From the NCBI RefSeq assembly GCF_018199995.1, contig NZ_CP073578.1, positions 2,046,001-2,110,000 of the forward strand: a stretch of 64,000 nucleotides of DNA. The letters are read 5' to 3'. This DNA is from Photobacterium sp. GJ3. Its GTDB lineage: Bacteria; Pseudomonadota; Gammaproteobacteria; Enterobacterales; Vibrionaceae. The notes beneath the pieces are model-generated. The model saw only the letters and a list, made by a program, of their open reading frames with translations. It did no database searches and had not been told where the DNA came from. Numbering within the stretch: position 1 is the stretch's first letter; every line of letters starts with the position of its first letter. The position numbers and the translations under genes are program-made. This document shows positions 51,989-58,424 of the stretch, piece after piece.

Positions 51989-52024
51989 AAAAAACAGATG
52001 CACCCCTGATTCAGGGCACATCTG
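51989..52024 (-). terminator. Terminator ending the curli subunit operon
   Basis: On the minus strand CAGATG-TG-CCCTGA-AT-CAGGGG-TG-CATCTG is followed by T6. The stem includes the last codons and stop of the 52011-52361 gene, so the terminator overlaps coding sequence. Confidence 0.85.
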
Positions 52025-52361
52025 TGGTGATCTTGCAGTCTTCTGAAATGGTCAGGCCGGTGGTTTCACCTTGCGTTTCAATTGTCACCTGAACCGGAAA
52101 CTGGCGGCGATCCATCCGCATCTGGGCTTTGCTGCCGCCTTGCATGGTATTGCGCATTCGGTTTCCGGCGGCAGAGAGCATCTCTAAATCAACGCTGGCA
52201 GATTCAAGCGCAACCACGGCCAGCGCGACGGTTTGATCGTCAACCAGGCAGTCTATAGTCACCGGTTCTTGTAACAGAGATTCAGGATAAGCCCAGACAG
52301 CACTGGTCGCCATCATGAAAGCGGCTGCCATCGCCGCTTTCATACTACGTATACGCGCCAT
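52011..52361 (-). CDS. Small secreted protein at the end of the curli operon, possible CsgC/CsgH-type chaperone
   Basis: About 116 residues with a signal peptide (MKAAMAAAFMMATSAVWA, cleavage before YPES) and a mature part of about 90 residues, mostly predicted beta. Two Cys (TIDCLVDD near the start, SEDCKITT near the end) could join the sheet ends. E. coli csgC, a small beta-sandwich that blocks premature curlin fibre growth, occupies the same position after csgA. Sequence similarity to CsgC or CsgH is not obvious by eye. The start overlaps the csgA-like stop by one base (TGATG), so it is translated with the curlin. Confidence 0.6.
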   Translation of the reverse strand: MARIRSMKAAMAAAFMMATSAVWAYPESLLQEPVTIDCLVDDQTVALAVVALESASVDLEMLSAAGNRMRNTMQGGSKAQMRMDRRQFPVQVTIETQGETTGLTISEDCKITTDVP

Positions 52362-53152
52362 CACAGCTGCGTCGTGATAAAGGTGTTCCCCGAAGAATTC
52401 ACGATCGTATCGGTCGCAACATCATTGTTGGTCTGAGTAATGATCACGGTGTTATGATTCGCCGAGCCACCCACACCACTGATATTCACAGTCGCCGTCG
52501 ATGCATTCCCCCACTGAGTCACACCAACGGTATTGTGATCCGCTTCACCTGCCAACGCAACCTGAGCCAGATTACCATCGCCCTGCTGCCAGACATTCAC
52601 AATATTGTTATCCGGATTATCAAATGGCGCACCCGAAATATCAATCATCGCCATATTGGCACTGCCGATTTGCGTCGTACTCAGAATATTTTCATCACCT
52701 GCAGTAATATAAATATCCGATGTGTTCATAGAACCATTCTGTGTTACTGATGCTGAATTATAATCTGCATTATCCACCATCAAAATCATTGAACCATTGG
52801 TTGAACCAGTCTGGCTGACATAAACAACATTGTTATCTGAATTCAAATCCGCACTCACCCAGGAAGTCTGGGTTGTGCCAACTTGCGCAATCGTCACCGT
52901 ATTCTCACTGGAACCATGATCCATAAAGATCTCTGACATGTGCGTTTCACCACTCTGATTCACCGTGGTTGTATTGTTATCAGAATGATTATCGTGGTAA
53001 ACGCTCGAATAGTGGCCAGAGCCACCAGAAAACTGATAGACAGACACCGTATTTCCGTCACTACCATTCACCGCTGTATTGAAAGATGTATTGGTTGCAA
53101 CTGCACTGCCTGACGCAATAAGCACAGAAGCTGCAAGCATGATCTTGTTCAT
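52361..53152 (-). CDS. CsgA-like curlin subunit 3
   Basis: A 263-residue secreted amyloid repeat protein: signal peptide ending SGSAVA, then nine to ten repeats of about 22-27 residues with the pattern D-N-x5-Q-x-G-x2-x-S-x-V (for example SENTVTIAQVGTTQTSWVSA and DNNIVNVWQQGDGNLAQVAL). Asn and Gln ladders of this kind stack into curli fibres. It ends ITTQL. It is more diverged than the other two copies (VNGSDGNTVSVYQFSGGSG) and lies 219 bp after copy 2, behind a hairpin, so it may have a separate promoter. Confidence 0.88.
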   Translation of the reverse strand: MNKIMLAASVLIASGSAVATNTSFNTAVNGSDGNTVSVYQFSGGSGHYSSVYHDNHSDNNTTTVNQSGETHMSEIFMDHGSSENTVTIAQVGTTQTSWVSADLNSDNNVVYVSQTGSTNGSMILMVDNADYNSASVTQNGSMNTSDIYITAGDENILSTTQIGSANMAMIDISGAPFDNPDNNIVNVWQQGDGNLAQVALAGEADHNTVGVTQWGNASTATVNISGVGGSANHNTVIITQTNNDVATDTIVNSSGNTFITTQL

Positions 53153-53326
53153 GGGATTACCCTATCTCTGTCAAGTGATATGAATTTCACTTCTGCTCAT
53201 ATAATGACTTCGGTTATTTTCATTCATGTTTACCATCAGAACGTAAACATCTGAACACGATGAGAGAAGTATTCCTTTTCGCCACTACCTGCATTTTTGT
53301 ATTCCATTGTATTTCAATCGGAAAAG

Positions 53327-53355
53327 ATAAAGCGACGAACCTCGCCGCTTTATCA
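53327..53355 (-). terminator. Hairpin between curlin copies 2 and 3
   Basis: ATAAAGCG (53327-53334) pairs with CGCTTTAT (53346-53353), and on the minus strand the stem is followed by CTTTTCC. It is a weak terminator or attenuator that could lower expression of the third copy. Confidence 0.45.
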
Positions 53356-53371
53356 TTATCCGTTCATCACA

Positions 53372-54163
53372 TCAGAGCTGAATCGTGGTGAAATTATTAC
53401 CCGATGAATTCACGATGGTATCAATCGCAACATCCAGATCGGTCTGCGTAATACTCACTGAGTTATTATCGGCCTGACCACCCGCCCCGACAATTGTCAC
53501 CACTGCTAATGAAGCATCACCCAGCTGATTTACACCCACCATGTTGTTATCCGCTTCGCCAATCAGCGAAACAGTAGAGACATTGCCATCCCCTTCTTGC
53601 AGCACATTTACAACGTTGTTATCTGGGTTATCAAACGGTGCACCAGTAGCAACCACTGTTGAAAAGTTACCTGTGCCGATCTGCGTCGTGTTGAGGATAT
53701 TATCATCCCCCGCAAAGACCACAGTACTGGCTGTATTCACACTCCCCAACTGGGTGTGTGAGGCAAAGTTGCCATCGGCATTAAAGTCCATCCGAATGTA
53801 CGAATCATTACCAGCACCTGTCTGCGTGACCACCATACTGTTATCATCAGAACCGTCGTCCACAATCACTTCGGATACGTTGGAATCGCCCCACTGCGTG
53901 ACCAGACTCCAGTTATCATCAGAACCATCTTCATAGCTCACTTCAGAGGTATGCGTTAGACCCACCTGAGAAACACTGGTGGTGTTGTCGTCTGAATTAC
54001 CGGCATGATAAACCGATGAAAAATGGCCCGCACCGGGTGAAAACTGATAGACATTCACGGTGTTTCCATCACTGCCGCCTACCGCAGTATTCAGTGATGT
54101 ATTCGTTGCATAAGCAGAACCAGAAGCGAGCAATACTGATATTACTAAAGCTAACTTTTTCAT
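53372..54163 (-). CDS. CsgA-like curlin subunit 2
   Basis: 263 residues, exactly the length of its two neighbours. Signal peptide MKKLALVISVLLASGSAYA, then the repeats, e.g. DDNWSLVTQWGDSNVSEVIV and DNNVVNVLQEGDGNVSTVSL, ending NSSGNNFTTIQL. The N-terminal 60 and C-terminal 60 residues are nearly the same as in copy 1 and the middle repeats vary more. This suggests a recent tandem duplication with divergence of surface positions. Seventy-three bases separate it from copy 1. Confidence 0.92.
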   Translation of the reverse strand: MKKLALVISVLLASGSAYATNTSLNTAVGGSDGNTVNVYQFSPGAGHFSSVYHAGNSDDNTTSVSQVGLTHTSEVSYEDGSDDNWSLVTQWGDSNVSEVIVDDGSDDNSMVVTQTGAGNDSYIRMDFNADGNFASHTQLGSVNTASTVVFAGDDNILNTTQIGTGNFSTVVATGAPFDNPDNNVVNVLQEGDGNVSTVSLIGEADNNMVGVNQLGDASLAVVTIVGAGGQADNNSVSITQTDLDVAIDTIVNSSGNNFTTIQL

Positions 54164-54236
54164 GATAACACCTTATAAAACTTTTACGTTTCAATAGAAG
54201 ATTTAATTTAAAAACACTTAGGACAGCGATAAATAA

Positions 54237-55028
54237 TTAAAACTGAACTGTGGTGAAGTTATTGCCTGATGAGTTCACAATAGTATCAATCGCTGTATCC
54301 AGATCCGTCTGCGTAATACTCACTGAGTTATTATCCGCCTGACCAAAGAACCCTGTAATGGACACGAGTGCGAATGAAGCATCACCCAGTTGGTTTACAG
54401 AAACAGTATTGTTATCTGCTTCGCCATTCAGCAAGACGGTTGAAATATTGCCATCCCCATTTTGCAAAACATTCACGATGTTATTATCCGGATTATCAAA
54501 TGGCGCCCCTGCCGCGAAAATATTCGAGAAGTTACCCGCACCATTCTGCGTGGTGGTCATGATATTTTCATCCCCAGCGAAGACAACGGATACCGCTGTA
54601 TTCCCAACTCCTGTCTGAGTGTGCGCAGCAAAGTTATCGTCGGCATTAAAATTCATTTCAATATAAGAGCTGTTTGCAAATCCAGTTTGCGTTGCAATCG
54701 CGCCATTTCCGTCAGAACCAAAATCAACAACCACATCAGAAGTATTTGAATCCCCCCATTGTGTGACAACAGACCAGTTATCACTTGAGCCATGGTCATA
54801 ACTGACTTCTGAATCGTGAGTCAAGCCCACCTGAGAGACGGTCGTTGTATTATCATCGGAGTTATTGTCATGAAAGACCGATGAGAAATGACCCGCACCA
54901 GGAGAGAACTGATAAACATTCACGGTGTTTCCGTCACTGCCGCCCACAGCAGTATTCAAAGAAGTATTCGTTGCATAAACACTACCAGAGGCTAACAGCA
55001 CTGAGATTGCTAAAGCTAACTTTTTCAT
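54237..55028 (-). CDS. csgA: CsgA-like curlin subunit 1
   Basis: Major curlin candidate, 263 residues. Signal peptide MKKLALAISVLLASGSVYA. The mature protein has about nine repeats, such as SDDNTTTVSQVGLTHDSEVS, SSDNWSVVTQWGDSNTSDVV and DNNIVNVLQNGDGNISTVLL, nearly twice as many as E. coli CsgA (five). Acidic Asp pairs replace many of the Ser residues of the E. coli motif. It starts 19 bases after csgB, so the two are co-transcribed, and it is the closest copy to the promoter. Confidence 0.92.
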   Translation of the reverse strand: MKKLALAISVLLASGSVYATNTSLNTAVGGSDGNTVNVYQFSPGAGHFSSVFHDNNSDDNTTTVSQVGLTHDSEVSYDHGSSDNWSVVTQWGDSNTSDVVVDFGSDGNGAIATQTGFANSSYIEMNFNADDNFAAHTQTGVGNTAVSVVFAGDENIMTTTQNGAGNFSNIFAAGAPFDNPDNNIVNVLQNGDGNISTVLLNGEADNNTVSVNQLGDASFALVSITGFFGQADNNSVSITQTDLDTAIDTIVNSSGNNFTTVQF

Positions 55029-55047: not shown

Positions 55048-55599
55048 TTAATAAACTGAAATATTTCTGCTCATGCCATTTAAAATCATGATGGATTCAT
55101 GACCGCTTTGATTGATGTCGAACCCAGAAAAAAGGACATAAGGCTTATTGACAACAACTGCTAAATTATCGTCGCCATGTTGGGTAATACTGTCACTATG
55201 GCCAATACCACTCTGGCTTAAAATTGCAGTATTTCCATTTCCGTATTGTTCTATGCTGCCATCATTTCCAATTCCATTTTGATAAATCGCAGCGTAATTT
55301 TCATTCCCATCCTGTTCAATATATGAACGATTGTAATGTCCCTCTTGATGAGAGTATGCAAAATTATCATGACCACTTATTTTTATTTTACTTTGATTCC
55401 CTCCAAGACCTCCTCCAGACTTTTGAACAATAATCGCCGTACTATCAGTTGCACCATATGCTTCAATAGAAGCAATATTGTCATCTGACCCCCAAACCTC
55501 ATTCAATTCATTATTTGCTAATTCACCTGCAGTCGATACCTGCGCGCAAATAAAAGATAAAGCAAATAATCCAGAATTTATTCTTTTCAAATGTTTCAT
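55048..55599 (-). CDS. csgB: Curlin nucleator CsgB-like protein
   Basis: A 183-residue secreted protein (signal peptide ending QVSTA-GE). Its repeats follow the curlin pattern: HDNFAYSHQEGHYNRSYIEQ, NENYAAIYQNGIGNDGSIEQ, NGNTAILSQSGIGHSDSITQ. It resembles CsgB in size, in being first in the subunit operon, and in a C-terminal repeat of different character (GFDINQSGHESIMILNGMSR) that could anchor it to the cell surface. The N-terminal ELANNELNEVWGSDDNIASI is non-repetitive. Confidence 0.85.
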   Translation of the reverse strand: MKHLKRINSGLFALSFICAQVSTAGELANNELNEVWGSDDNIASIEAYGATDSTAIIVQKSGGGLGGNQSKIKISGHDNFAYSHQEGHYNRSYIEQDGNENYAAIYQNGIGNDGSIEQYGNGNTAILSQSGIGHSDSITQHGDDNLAVVVNKPYVLFSGFDINQSGHESIMILNGMSRNISVY

Positions 55600-55683
55600 T
55601 TTCTTATCCAGAAGAAAACAGGTGTCGTAAAAATATTATGGCACTCGGATAAAATTGCACCATAAACTTAATAGTGAATTTAT

Positions 55684-55698
55684 CAATTATAATAATTG
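55684..55698 (-). promoter_or_regulatory. Palindrome with TATAAT upstream of csgB
   Basis: CAATTAT-A-ATAATTG is perfectly symmetric and contains TATAAT on the coding (minus) strand about 90 bases before csgB. It could be the -10 overlapped by an operator. No good -35 is visible 17 bases upstream. Confidence 0.5.
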
Positions 55699-55928
55699 AA
55701 AATTACGACTCCCCACCCAGATACATTTATAACAAAATCAGTTATTTACAATATAAAATCTCAGTCAGAGAGCGAATAAACCATTGTGTTACCTACTTAA
55801 CCGGCTGTTCTCCAATGTGATTTACAATACAATTTAGTACCACAACAATATCCTCATCACTTTCAAATAAATAACATCTATCAATAAACATTTACCACCG
55901 CCATCGTCAGTGGCTTTGGGATGACAAC

Positions 55929-55958
55929 AAAAAAGGCCAACACAAAGTGAAGGCCCTT
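55929..55958 (-). terminator. Terminator after csgG
   Basis: On the minus strand AAGGGCC and GGCCTTTTTT can pair around a 13-base loop, ending in a T-run, 32-61 bases past csgG. Confidence 0.6.
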
Positions 55959-55989
55959 GATATCAATGATTTAAATTTATGGCGATAAT

Positions 55990-56826
55990 TTAAATAATCG
56001 GCTGCTCTGTAAACATATACTTCTGAATCACAGGGTTATTGATCTCTGCACGGTTCGCCAGTTTCCAGAGATTGGTATTGATCCCATCCACAATCAGTTG
56101 GATCACTGCAGCATCTATCGCAGACATCACCGCAATATTGACCGGCTCATTGGTTGTGATGCCCAATTCCGCTTCCAGCAGATCTTTGTAATCAATAAAC
56201 TTGAAGACCCCTGTCTGAAACTCTTGTGAAAGAATCGTCTTACTGGTTGTGACGCTCACCAGAACCCGCCCGGTCCGCACATCAATAGCCCTGAGATTCA
56301 CCGTCACCTGATCGGTCCGGTATTGTGAAGAAATACCAATCCCCAGATAACGTGCACCGGAACCACCTGTCTGAATGTTGGTATCGTAGGCCACGATCCC
56401 CCCTTCAATGACAATATTCGATGACATCAGTGAAGGAAGATGCGAACCATGATTCACCGGTATTTCCTGCTTTTGCTGTGCCGCACGAATGATCTTTCGC
56501 TCTGTGAGCAAATTTTGCAGCCCTTCCCGCTCCAGCGGAATAAACCATTTGGAGTTCAGCAAAGAAGTGGTCAGCAGCGCCGCCCCTCCCTGAGGAACCG
56601 CTGTGGAAAAGTTACTGTTCGGCTGCGGCTTATACTGCCCGGTCTGATCTCTGAAATCATAAACAGAGACAAATATCTGCCCCTGAGGCATCGGCAAAGA
56701 CACTAAATCCTCAAAAATTGCCCCACGGGGCATTAAGGTTGGTTCCCTGTCTGCATCAGGCATTCGCATTGAATTCGAACATGCATTGACGAACAACACA
56801 GAGCACAAAAGGATCAACTTTTTCAT
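55990..56826 (-). CDS. csgG: Curli secretion pore lipoprotein CsgG
   Basis: Outer-membrane nonameric channel exporting curlins, 278 residues. The lipobox is VNACSNS (Cys near 16). The channel constriction region is conserved: TGQYKPQPNSNFSTAVPQGG, with the Tyr, Asn and Phe that line the E. coli pore. LEREGLQNLLTERKIIRAAQ and VIEGGIVAYDTNIQTGGSGA follow. Length matches the E. coli protein. Thirteen bases after csgF, last gene of csgDEFG. Confidence 0.97.
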   Translation of the reverse strand: MKKLILLCSVLFVNACSNSMRMPDADREPTLMPRGAIFEDLVSLPMPQGQIFVSVYDFRDQTGQYKPQPNSNFSTAVPQGGAALLTTSLLNSKWFIPLEREGLQNLLTERKIIRAAQQKQEIPVNHGSHLPSLMSSNIVIEGGIVAYDTNIQTGGSGARYLGIGISSQYRTDQVTVNLRAIDVRTGRVLVSVTTSKTILSQEFQTGVFKFIDYKDLLEAELGITTNEPVNIAVMSAIDAAVIQLIVDGINTNLWKLANRAEINNPVIQKYMFTEQPII

Positions 56827-56839
56827 GACGAACTCCCTG

Positions 56840-57241
56840 TTAATCAGGCATCAAACCATTGACCTGAATGGTTGATGACTCTCCCGTTTGTTTATCCGTA
56901 ATTTGAATCAGTAAGGTGCCGTTATCATCCAGAATATTCAGGACGAAATCATCGGTTGTGAGTTGCCCTGTATTGCCATTCCCCACATCAGCCAATAACT
57001 GGCTGATTAATCTGGACTCTAAGTTTGCCGTTAATCGTTCTAAATCTGACTGTTGCTCAAACGGATCACTCGCTGATGGATCTTTGTGATCATTAATGGC
57101 ATTTGCAACACCCAGCAAGAAATTACCGTTTAAAGGGTTCCCGCCAAAATTTGGGTTTACAGGTGTATAAATCAGTTCGGTCGCCTGTGCATTCCAGCTC
57201 ATGCAGCCAAACAATAGCAGCATACAAAACTTCCTTTTCAT
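56840..57241 (-). CDS. csgF: Curli assembly factor CsgF
   Basis: A 133-residue secreted protein that caps the CsgG channel and tethers the nucleator outside. After the signal peptide (ending NAQA-TE), it shows the conserved LIYTPVNPNFGGNPLNGNFL, which inserts in the CsgG pore, then a helical neck (LERLTANLESRLISQLLADV) and a C-terminal domain. Eleven bases after csgE. Confidence 0.95.
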   Translation of the reverse strand: MKRKFCMLLLFGCMSWNAQATELIYTPVNPNFGGNPLNGNFLLGVANAINDHKDPSASDPFEQQSDLERLTANLESRLISQLLADVGNGNTGQLTTDDFVLNILDDNGTLLIQITDKQTGESSTIQVNGLMPD

Positions 57242-57252
57242 GAGTTTGCTCC

Positions 57253-57765
57253 TTAAATTTCGTCATAGTCAACATCGAAGGTATCTTTTAAATACCGCTC
57301 TATTCGCCATCTGAGAACATAGTTTTTGACTGCATTGACGGCCTGGTCCGTTTTTTCCTCAGCATTTTGTCGCCCCGGAGAAAGTGCGGTTCTGTAAATC
57401 ATATTCTGCCGGTGATAAATGCTGATAATACTTCCGGATAAAGCGGTCGGCCTTTCTTTTACCACTAAGTTCTCTTTTAATTCATCCAATTGATCTTCAA
57501 GCTTCTGTGCAAACAGTGAATAAAAGCTTTCTCCCAGTCGTGTCATCGTTCGGTCGATCACTGCACCGCTGATTTCACGCAGACTGTCCAGGTTTTCGAG
57601 TCGACCTTTCGTTTCAAGCGGTTCATCACTTTCAAGCTTCGGACCATTCTCAAGTTTCTTCCCATTTTCCAGAGGTTGCTCTTTCCCGGAGTTTTGTGCC
57701 TGGGAAAAGACAAATAACGGGCACATGCACAGCATGCACAAGAGCGTCAGGTTCAATTTTTTCAT
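57253..57765 (-). CDS. csgE: Curli assembly factor CsgE, with an unusual N-terminal linker
   Basis: Periplasmic specificity factor that closes and loads CsgG. The CsgE domain is about residues 60-170, with ISGAVIDRTMTRLGESFYSL and YLKDTFDVDYDEI. Between the signal peptide (ending FSQA) and this domain lies an extra 35-residue stretch of degenerate repeats (PLENGKKLENGPKLESDEPL then ETKGRLENLD). At 170 residues it is longer than E. coli CsgE (129). Its start overlaps csgD by 4 bases. Confidence 0.9.
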   Translation of the reverse strand: MKKLNLTLLCMLCMCPLFVFSQAQNSGKEQPLENGKKLENGPKLESDEPLETKGRLENLDSLREISGAVIDRTMTRLGESFYSLFAQKLEDQLDELKENLVVKERPTALSGSIISIYHRQNMIYRTALSPGRQNAEEKTDQAVNAVKNYVLRWRIERYLKDTFDVDYDEI

Positions 57766-58424
57766 GAGCTTAAACTATTCAAGGTATGGTTTTTCGCCCA
57801 CATAAAAGCCTGCAGGCGGTTTTTAACCTTAATTTTCTTAAAAACATTATGAAGATGGGTTTTGACCGTATTTTCACTGACAAACAGAGACTCAGCAATT
57901 TGCGAGTTTGAAGCACCAGAGACCAGCAACTGCATGATTTCCTTTTCTCTTGCGGTTAATTCAACCGTCATCTTTGGGAAACTTGTCTGCGTACTCCGGT
58001 ATTCTGAAATCAATGCCTGACACAATTTTCGACTGAACCATAATTCACCATTTTGTATTTTTGTTAACCCTTCAGATAATATCTCAAGAGAATCACTGGT
58101 ATAAAACACGCCCACTAAATTTGGCCATATTTTCAGCGCTTCGACCTGAACATCATTGGGAACATTAATTAAGACTTCCGAAGGGATAACTTCCATTTCG
58201 GCAATTGTATTTAAATAATGTTCATTCGACTTTTTCGTTGCACTGGCAGAATCCAGCAAGAAGAGTGTTTCTTCAATCTCACCTGATGATAACGCCTTCA
58301 TCTCATCAATCGAGATCGAATTGACCGTCATTTTTACATGTCGAATCAAATACTCTTTTAATATCGAGGCTTGAATACTCTCGTCAGAAACGAGTGCCAG
58401 TCGGCTGTATGGTTTAATAGACAT
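57762..58424 (-). CDS. csgD: LuxR-type curli regulator CsgD
   Basis: Master activator of curli and biofilm genes, 220 residues. The N-terminal receiver-like domain (about 1-140) lacks the usual phospho-acceptor pocket: LFLLDSASATK replaces the DxxMP type. The C-terminal LuxR helix-turn-helix (about 155-215) has LTAREKEIMQLLVSGASNSQ and ENTVKTHLHNVFKKIKVKNR. It heads csgDEFG and overlaps csgE by four bases. In enterics CsgD integrates c-di-GMP signals through its promoter; similar inputs are likely here but not shown. Confidence 0.93.
   Translation of the reverse strand: MSIKPYSRLALVSDESIQASILKEYLIRHVKMTVNSISIDEMKALSSGEIEETLFLLDSASATKKSNEHYLNTIAEMEVIPSEVLINVPNDVQVEALKIWPNLVGVFYTSDSLEILSEGLTKIQNGELWFSRKLCQALISEYRSTQTSFPKMTVELTAREKEIMQLLVSGASNSQIAESLFVSENTVKTHLHNVFKKIKVKNRLQAFMWAKNHTLNSLSS

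Follow-up and report, generated by a model that had tools for sequence, protein, structure and literature searches.

Three csgA genes in tandem with identical length and repeat register in a curli cluster of Photobacterium sp. GJ3

We report that a 64,000-nucleotide stretch of the Photobacterium sp. GJ3 genome (contig NZ_CP073578.1, positions 2,046,001 to 2,110,000; hereafter the window, with coordinates counted from its first letter) carries a curli cluster in the order csgD-E-F-G-B-A1-A2-A3-orfC, in one direction throughout on the minus strand, with the major curlin gene present as three tandem copies. These copies, csgA1 (54237..55028), csgA2 (53372..54163) and csgA3 (52361..53152), each have 263 codons and 9.5 repeats, and they score 39.0, 42.9 and 44.6 bits, respectively, against the Pfam Curlin_rpt model (gathering cut-off 20.7 bits). 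A prior interpretation made from the letters alone (the sequence-only reading) had described three same-direction curlin genes of 263 codons with nine to ten repeats each, and this description is confirmed. The glutamine (Q) of repeat motif a is located at residues 40, 66, 90, 114, 138, 161, 189, 213, 240 and 262 in all three proteins, and the resulting spacings of 26, 24, 24, 24, 23, 28, 24, 27 and 22 correspond to nine complete repeats, within a range of 22-28, followed by half a repeat at the end. When the copies were aligned repeat by repeat they were in register, with all ten motif-a Q coinciding and no gaps, at identities of 206/263 (A1-A2), 157/263 (A1-A3) and 156/263 (A2-A3). The duplication and the identical register are thus evident from the sequences themselves. 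Scored against the NCBIfam CsgA equivalog model PRK10051, the three proteins reach 25.1-38.6 bits (cut-off 160), and we therefore assign them to the curlin family and not to the CsgA equivalog; csgB, csgE, csgF and csgG are encoded alongside, and the repeats correspond to a stacked strand-arc-strand beta-solenoid. Foldseek with A1 returned nothing at E <= 0.001. A search of the whole genome (5.3 Mb; best named matches Photobacterium salinisoli and P. halotolerans) with A1 recovered only the three copies, and the Pfam curlin model (34 positions) gave four matches in that genome, all at the csg locus.

The minor curlin gene csgB (55048..55599; 183 aa) scores 51.6 bits against Curlin_rpt and has the NCBIfam CsgB model as its top hit in that collection (69.1 bits, under the model cut-off of 165). 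Preceding it are csgG (55990..56826; secretion pore, 278 aa, Pfam CsgG 269.9 bits), csgF (56840..57241; Pfam CsgF 100.2 bits), csgE (57253..57765; Pfam CsgE 105.6 bits) and csgD (57762..58424), which encodes a LuxR-type regulator with a VpsT-like receiver (Pfam GerE and VpsT-like_REC; NCBIfam CsgD 171.4 bits, under the cut-off of 250). The 390-nt spacer between csgG and csgB (55600..55989) is the presumed csgB promoter region, and its last part is 81% identical to that of the nearest relative, G007, over 105 columns. At the other end, orfC (52011..52364) encodes a small, probably secreted beta-sandwich protein, and a terminator-like hairpin with a T run (51994..52025; 13 pairs, loop of 6) closes the cluster. 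All these features are on the minus strand. Among 52 genomes of the genus, csgG was present in 13, including that of the window. At six Aliivibrio loci csgB-A lies on the strand opposite csgDEFG, while the window has both on one strand.

The three proteins are strongly acidic. Past residue 20 they contain 0, 1 and 0 Lys/Arg and 27, 30 and 22 Asp/Glu (A1, A2 and A3, respectively), and their net charges are -27, -29 and -22. The sequence-only reading had remarked on Asp-Asn pairs at repeat starts as unusual. They are present, with Asp eight residues before the motif-a Q in 40 of the 50 repeats counted over the window and G007 proteins, but Asp occupies that position in 97 of 137 repeats from the remaining 15 Photobacterium curlins as well, so that the pairs are common across the genus; in this composition count the anchor pattern can include extra positions, and other genera are represented only by csgA-size open reading frames (ORFs) of at least 230 aa. 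We do not press a cation-binding Asp ladder as a new idea, as Asp/Glu ladders have already been described for the R15.5 curlin in PMC10192328.

How the copies differ follows the position of each residue in the solenoid. With sites numbered from the motif-a Q according to the motif N-x-psi-x-psi-x-Q given in PMC10192328, A1 and A2 differ at 6 of 76 inward and 31 of 76 outward positions, and A1 and A3 at 16 of 76 and 53 of 76. The two copies of P. chitinilyticum behave in the same way (5/60 inward, 38/60 outward), and outward divergence exceeded inward divergence in 11 of 11 curlin pairs tested. Charge changes are likewise mostly outward (21 outward and 1 inward for the P. chitinilyticum pair; 8 and 1 for A1-A3). 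The differently charged pairs of equal length are those of P. chitinilyticum (locus L023, 11879-12544 and 13138-13803) and G033 (locus L103, 9379-10044 and 8110-8775), where net charges of copies a and b are -18/+1 and -17/+1, respectively. This contrast between core and surface is, like the hairpin described below, a direct reading of the sequence; the inward steric-zipper residues appear to be kept while the outward positions diverge among copies, and such copies should therefore form fibres with a common spine and a somewhat different surface.

A phylogenetic tree groups A1, A2 and G007_a (one of two curlins in G007) with support 99/97, and A3 with the second, G007_b (87/71). The view that copy 3 is the older one is thereby upheld: the duplication that gave rise to the A1/A2 and A3 types appears to be common to the window and G007, with A3 as the older branch. 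A1 joins G007_a with support of only 91/64, and A1 and A2 may have separated before or after the species split; the synonymous divergence (dS) of A1-A2 (1.51, near saturation) is similar to that of A1-G007_a (1.57) and A2-G007_a (1.67), which suggests that this duplication took place at about the same time as the split. On this tree, which is flagged for long branches and composition, the group of P. chitinilyticum, G033, G044 and G008 seems to have had duplications of its own, apart from those of the window and G007. The ratio of nonsynonymous to synonymous divergence (dN/dS) is 0.095-0.21 in eight of ten pairs, and the other two are saturated.

To place the copies in context we compared the 12 Photobacterium loci with readable csgA genes (the window, L098 from G007, L018, L019, L020, L021, L023, L099, L100, L101, L102 and L103); L015/L022 (one genome) and L016, where the sequence stops before csgA, were left out of copy counts, and for G007_a, G007_b, N510 and G033_b an internal Met was taken as the start. 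There is one csgA in six loci, two in four and three in two (the window and L102 from G008). Where there are several, lengths are 263 x 3 in the window, 263 x 2 in G007, 221 x 2 in P. chitinilyticum and 221 x 2 in G033, with unequal members in G008 (214, 214 and 316) and G044 (223 and 316); single-copy loci have 284, 211, 211, 259, 259 and 217. In G008_c and G044_b the difference is four repeats more than in the neighbouring 214- and 223-aa copies. In all 20 Photobacterium curlins the last motif-a Q is followed by one residue and then the C-terminus, and Q spacing is identical across the five 263-aa proteins of the window and G007; N510 and G026 have a uniform spacing of 24, and most others an uneven series resembling that of the window. 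Between lineages curlin length thus seems to shift mainly by whole repeats of ~24 residues, together with arc and N-terminal indels. The sequence-only reading had named variable length at related loci as grounds for abandoning its proposal; length does vary between lineages, but it is constant among the closest relatives.

Alignments without gaps are also found between single-copy orthologues (N510/G026, 71% identity, 259 = 259; Phal/G016, 94%, 211 = 211). Among pairs at 65-75% identity, gaps are absent from 8 of 10 for curlins compared with 42 of 112 for non-curlin orthologues, the latter being reciprocal best ORFs of at least 120 aa from the 12 loci (399 pairs kept, those of at least 55% identity tabulated), which may include spurious ORFs and are not independent pairs. 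Close relatives therefore appear to keep their register tighter than ordinary proteins do.

Tandem curlins were also seen in other genera, using a motif scan that can miss diverged ones. Three Microbulbifer loci (L060, L061 and L066) have equal-length tandem curlin ORFs past csgB (293/293, 293/293 and 291/291, counted from the first start codon), and at other Microbulbifer loci such ORFs are near-equal in length. In Vibrio, L038 (7144-14909) and L031 (7168-14080) have a second csgB-csgA-like pair adjoining the first, with csgA genes of unequal length. The same scan of the stretches at the locus gave a csgB-like ORF without a csgA-like ORF in 10 of 19 Shewanella loci (L039, L044, L045, L046, L047, L049, L052, L053, L057 and L064); in three of those genomes, where ORFs were checked one by one, more curlin-repeat frames are present on other contigs.

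The spacers between the csgA genes differ from each other. That between csgA1 and csgA2 (54164..54236, minus strand, 73 nt) has no hairpin of at least 8 pairs, whereas the 219-nt spacer between csgA2 and csgA3 contains, as the sequence-only reading had noted, a hairpin (53326..53354, minus strand; 13 pairs, 6 of them G-C, then TTTTCC), which is terminator-like or attenuator-like and has the GC-containing stem and following T run of an intrinsic terminator. This hairpin divides csgB-A1-A2 from A3-orfC. The whole spacer folds with a z score of -2.83, and a 57-nt stretch chosen around the hairpin with -24.4 kcal/mol (z -5.0). Of the 8 csgA-csgA spacers in the six multi-copy loci, 7 contain a hairpin (z -2.3 to -7.9 for the chosen stretches). 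The chosen stretches were picked around hairpins already found, a selection that inflates their z. In P. chitinilyticum (L023, 12545-13137), G033 (L103, 8776-9378) and G044 (L101, 6454-6786) the spacer has, beside the terminator-like hairpin, a copy of the csgB promoter region (0 of 300 shuffles scored as high in all three; 77% identity over 101 nt, E 6.6e-18, in P. chitinilyticum), and the b-c spacer of G008 is borderline (2/300). No such copy was detected in the G008 a-b (222/300) or G007 (156/300) spacers; at E <= 0.01 blastn matched the latter only to 26 nt of the P. salinisoli csgB region (E 0.001) and to 23 nt of the A2-A3 spacer of the window, at the hairpin (E 0.004). Judged from these elements, the later csgA genes in some relatives resemble independent cassettes that carry a terminator and a promoter. 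Remnants of curlin genes in the spacers were considered and rejected: every tblastn match at E < 0.01 falls within residues 1-21 of a csgB ORF that had been called too long and runs into the promoter, and two matches of csgA type (E 0.84 and 0.96) and an 18-nt csgB match (E 0.049) are at chance level.

The start of orfC overlaps the stop codon of csgA3, and we infer that translation of the two may be coupled. Six Photobacterium loci have a homologue 3' of their final csgA (the window, L098, L018, L019, L099 and L021), and C35 and C106 are conserved in all seven rows of an alignment of these six with Vibrio L030. The predicted model is an eight-strand beta-sandwich (pLDDT 80.3), and no Pfam family matched the protein. 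According to PMC4838910, CsgH-like proteins are defined by distant cysteines, their genes lie beside subunit genes and they carry a conserved positive surface; the same paper describes a drop in the potency of E. coli CsgC in salt. The gene for orfC adjoins the subunit genes and its two cysteines are far apart in sequence, which together make it a probable CsgH-type curlin chaperone. It resembles CsgH and CsgC as presented there in being small, in its beta-sandwich model, in adjoining csgA and in the two distant cysteines; unlike them it is not basic overall (7 Lys/Arg and 14 Asp/Glu past residue 20, although less acidic than its CsgA), and it has no detectable sequence match to the solved ones. 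Two PDB sequence matches to ribosomal proteins are at chance level.

We consider that the locus as a whole is best explained by tandem duplication of csgA in a curli (type VIII secretion) cluster combined with purifying selection on beta-solenoid register, to which we give a probability of roughly 0.7. The copies would descend from one 9.5-repeat gene, and indels that would shift the strands of the stacked beta-arches would have been purged by selection, so that the equal lengths follow from the common ancestor and the removal of such indels. The hairpin after csgA2 most likely terminates or attenuates transcription, such that csgB-A1-A2 would be made in bulk and A3-orfC in smaller amount, with orfC as a probable CsgH-like anti-aggregation chaperone. 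Several observations weigh against parts of this explanation. The tree is flagged for long branches and uneven composition, and across the genus 36 of 43 curlin pairs at 55-65% identity carry gaps, six of the seven gapless ones being among the five window and G007 proteins. The T run of the hairpin is short (four T before CC), and the structure could protect the A1-A2 mRNA end instead of terminating. Hairpins also occur 3' of the last csgA in six loci (P. chitinilyticum, G033, G044, G008, N510 and G026), so the inter-copy hairpin may simply represent a terminator of csgA that was copied when the gene was. A csgB-promoter copy before csgA3 was sought and not detected in the window spacers (212/300 shuffles as high for A2-A3, 294/300 for A1-A2), and a sigma-70 scan was uninformative (16 sites, 16.3 expected). 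With respect to orfC, only 6 of the 12 loci have a homologue, a sequence search of the PDB gave no CsgC or CsgH match, and solved CsgH (2N59) and CsgC (2Y2Y) are not named among the fold matches listed.

The sequence-only reading had taken identical length as a sign of selection on fibril register, perhaps for mixed fibres, and the first part stands at the level of the repeat, in Q spacing and inward conservation. That three co-assembling subunits were selected for equal length to fit one fibril register is unlikely in our view. Seven of ten co-resident Photobacterium pairs have the same length, and the window contributes three of these; the P. chitinilyticum and G033 pairs (68-69% identity) differ strongly in charge, as partners with different surface roles would, and alignments free of gaps are uncommon, though not rare, at identities near 60% (in the 55-65% range, 11 of 47 non-curlin pairs and 7 of 43 curlin pairs, the pairs not being independent). 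Unequal copies, however, stand side by side in G008 and G044 (the three unequal pairs), single-copy orthologues are equally length-constant, and from the architecture described in PMC10192328 we reason that an n-repeat solenoid could stack on an m-repeat one, so that mixing needs no equal length. The coexisting unequal copies and the length-constant orthologues rule out exact equal length as sufficient evidence of mixed fibres; the length data agree with selection acting within each protein on its arch register and do not single out co-assembly. We consider it distinctly improbable that gene conversion maintains the shared length and the similar termini of the copies. A1 and A2 are indeed, as had been claimed, alike at the termini and variable in the centre (18/20 and 20/20 identical in the first two 20-residue blocks, 11/20 at 101-120, 19/20 at 241-260), and their synonymous difference falls to 0.24 at codons 214-243 (a level reached in 9 of 500 shuffles), a stretch that includes 29 identical nucleotides in a row. 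This weakly suggests a conversion tract in the C-terminal third; the signal comes from one of six pairs tested and is weak once that is corrected for, and overall A1-A2 dS is near saturation. No tract links A3 to A1 or A2 (402/500 and 455/500 shuffles as low), and likeness of the signal peptides is also found between species (A1-G007_a, synonymous difference 0.33 at codons 1-20). The conversion test that the sequence-only reading had proposed thus leaves one weak A1/A2 tract, and we reject conversion as the cause of equal length.

Plain gene dosage, with interchangeable copies that only raise CsgA output, we regard as rather doubtful. It would suit A1 and A2, which are 78% identical and, being 73 nt apart with no hairpin between them, are probably on one transcript; the A3 type and the A1/A2 type have nevertheless been distinct since before G007 split off, and dN/dS is well below 1 where computable. 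Beyond duplication under register selection, we tentatively raise, at less than even odds, that the csgA copies are expression cassettes for interchangeable subunits alike in spine and unlike in surface, and that the cell sets the surface charge of a common fibre by cassette choice. The clearest example would be the equal-length pairs of P. chitinilyticum and G033, with A1/A2 versus A3 of the window as a milder one.

As to why some bacteria have several major curlin genes, PMC3521004 suggests that the additional copies adjust the properties of the fibrils and may be under separate control. The Photobacterium loci provide a natural test set, with identical repeat register, conserved zipper, diverged surfaces and mappable regulatory elements between the copies; with the hairpins, the promoter copies and the core/surface contrast, the published proposal that curli can be tuned becomes open to direct test. 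The loci also suggest that curlins lengthen or shorten for the most part by entire arches, which bears on the evolution of amyloid solenoids. We regard the finding as genuine but for the most part ordinary, as multi-copy, long and acidic curlins are already in print; new are the common spine with diverged surface, the recurrent inter-copy hairpin and the promoter copy in some relatives. A literature search covering titles and the beginnings of abstracts, mostly without subscription papers, found no description of Photobacterium csgA cassettes or of inter-csgA hairpins or promoter copies.

Compared with the curli of E. coli and Salmonella (csgDEFG/csgBAC), the window shares csgB, csgA, csgD-G, the curlin repeat and nucleator-type and major-type subunits, and it differs in having three csgA genes and in A1 lacking Gln eleven residues after the motif-a Q in nine of nine full repeats. 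PMC3521004 gives 4-5 repeats for Enterobacteriales, against 9.5 in the window, and divergent operons for Enterobacteriales and Vibrionales, where csgDEFG and csgB-A of the window are co-directional; it also records curlin sizes reaching 529 residues and 22 repeats. PMC10192328 describes a mean repeat of 23 +/- 5, degenerate-class curlins and half-repeat ends, as well as the Pontibacter korlensis CsgA R15.5 (PDB 8c50), with 15.5 regular centrosymmetric repeats where the 9.5 of the window are uneven, and with acidic Asp/Glu ladders and calcium effects. In being multi-copy for csgA the window resembles genomes with several csgA/B homologues, of which there are up to six in some genera (PMC3521004) and up to 30 copies per genome (PMC10192328). 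The extra copies described in PMC3521004 are dissimilar and often in additional operons, whereas those of the window are collinear, in register and in one cluster.

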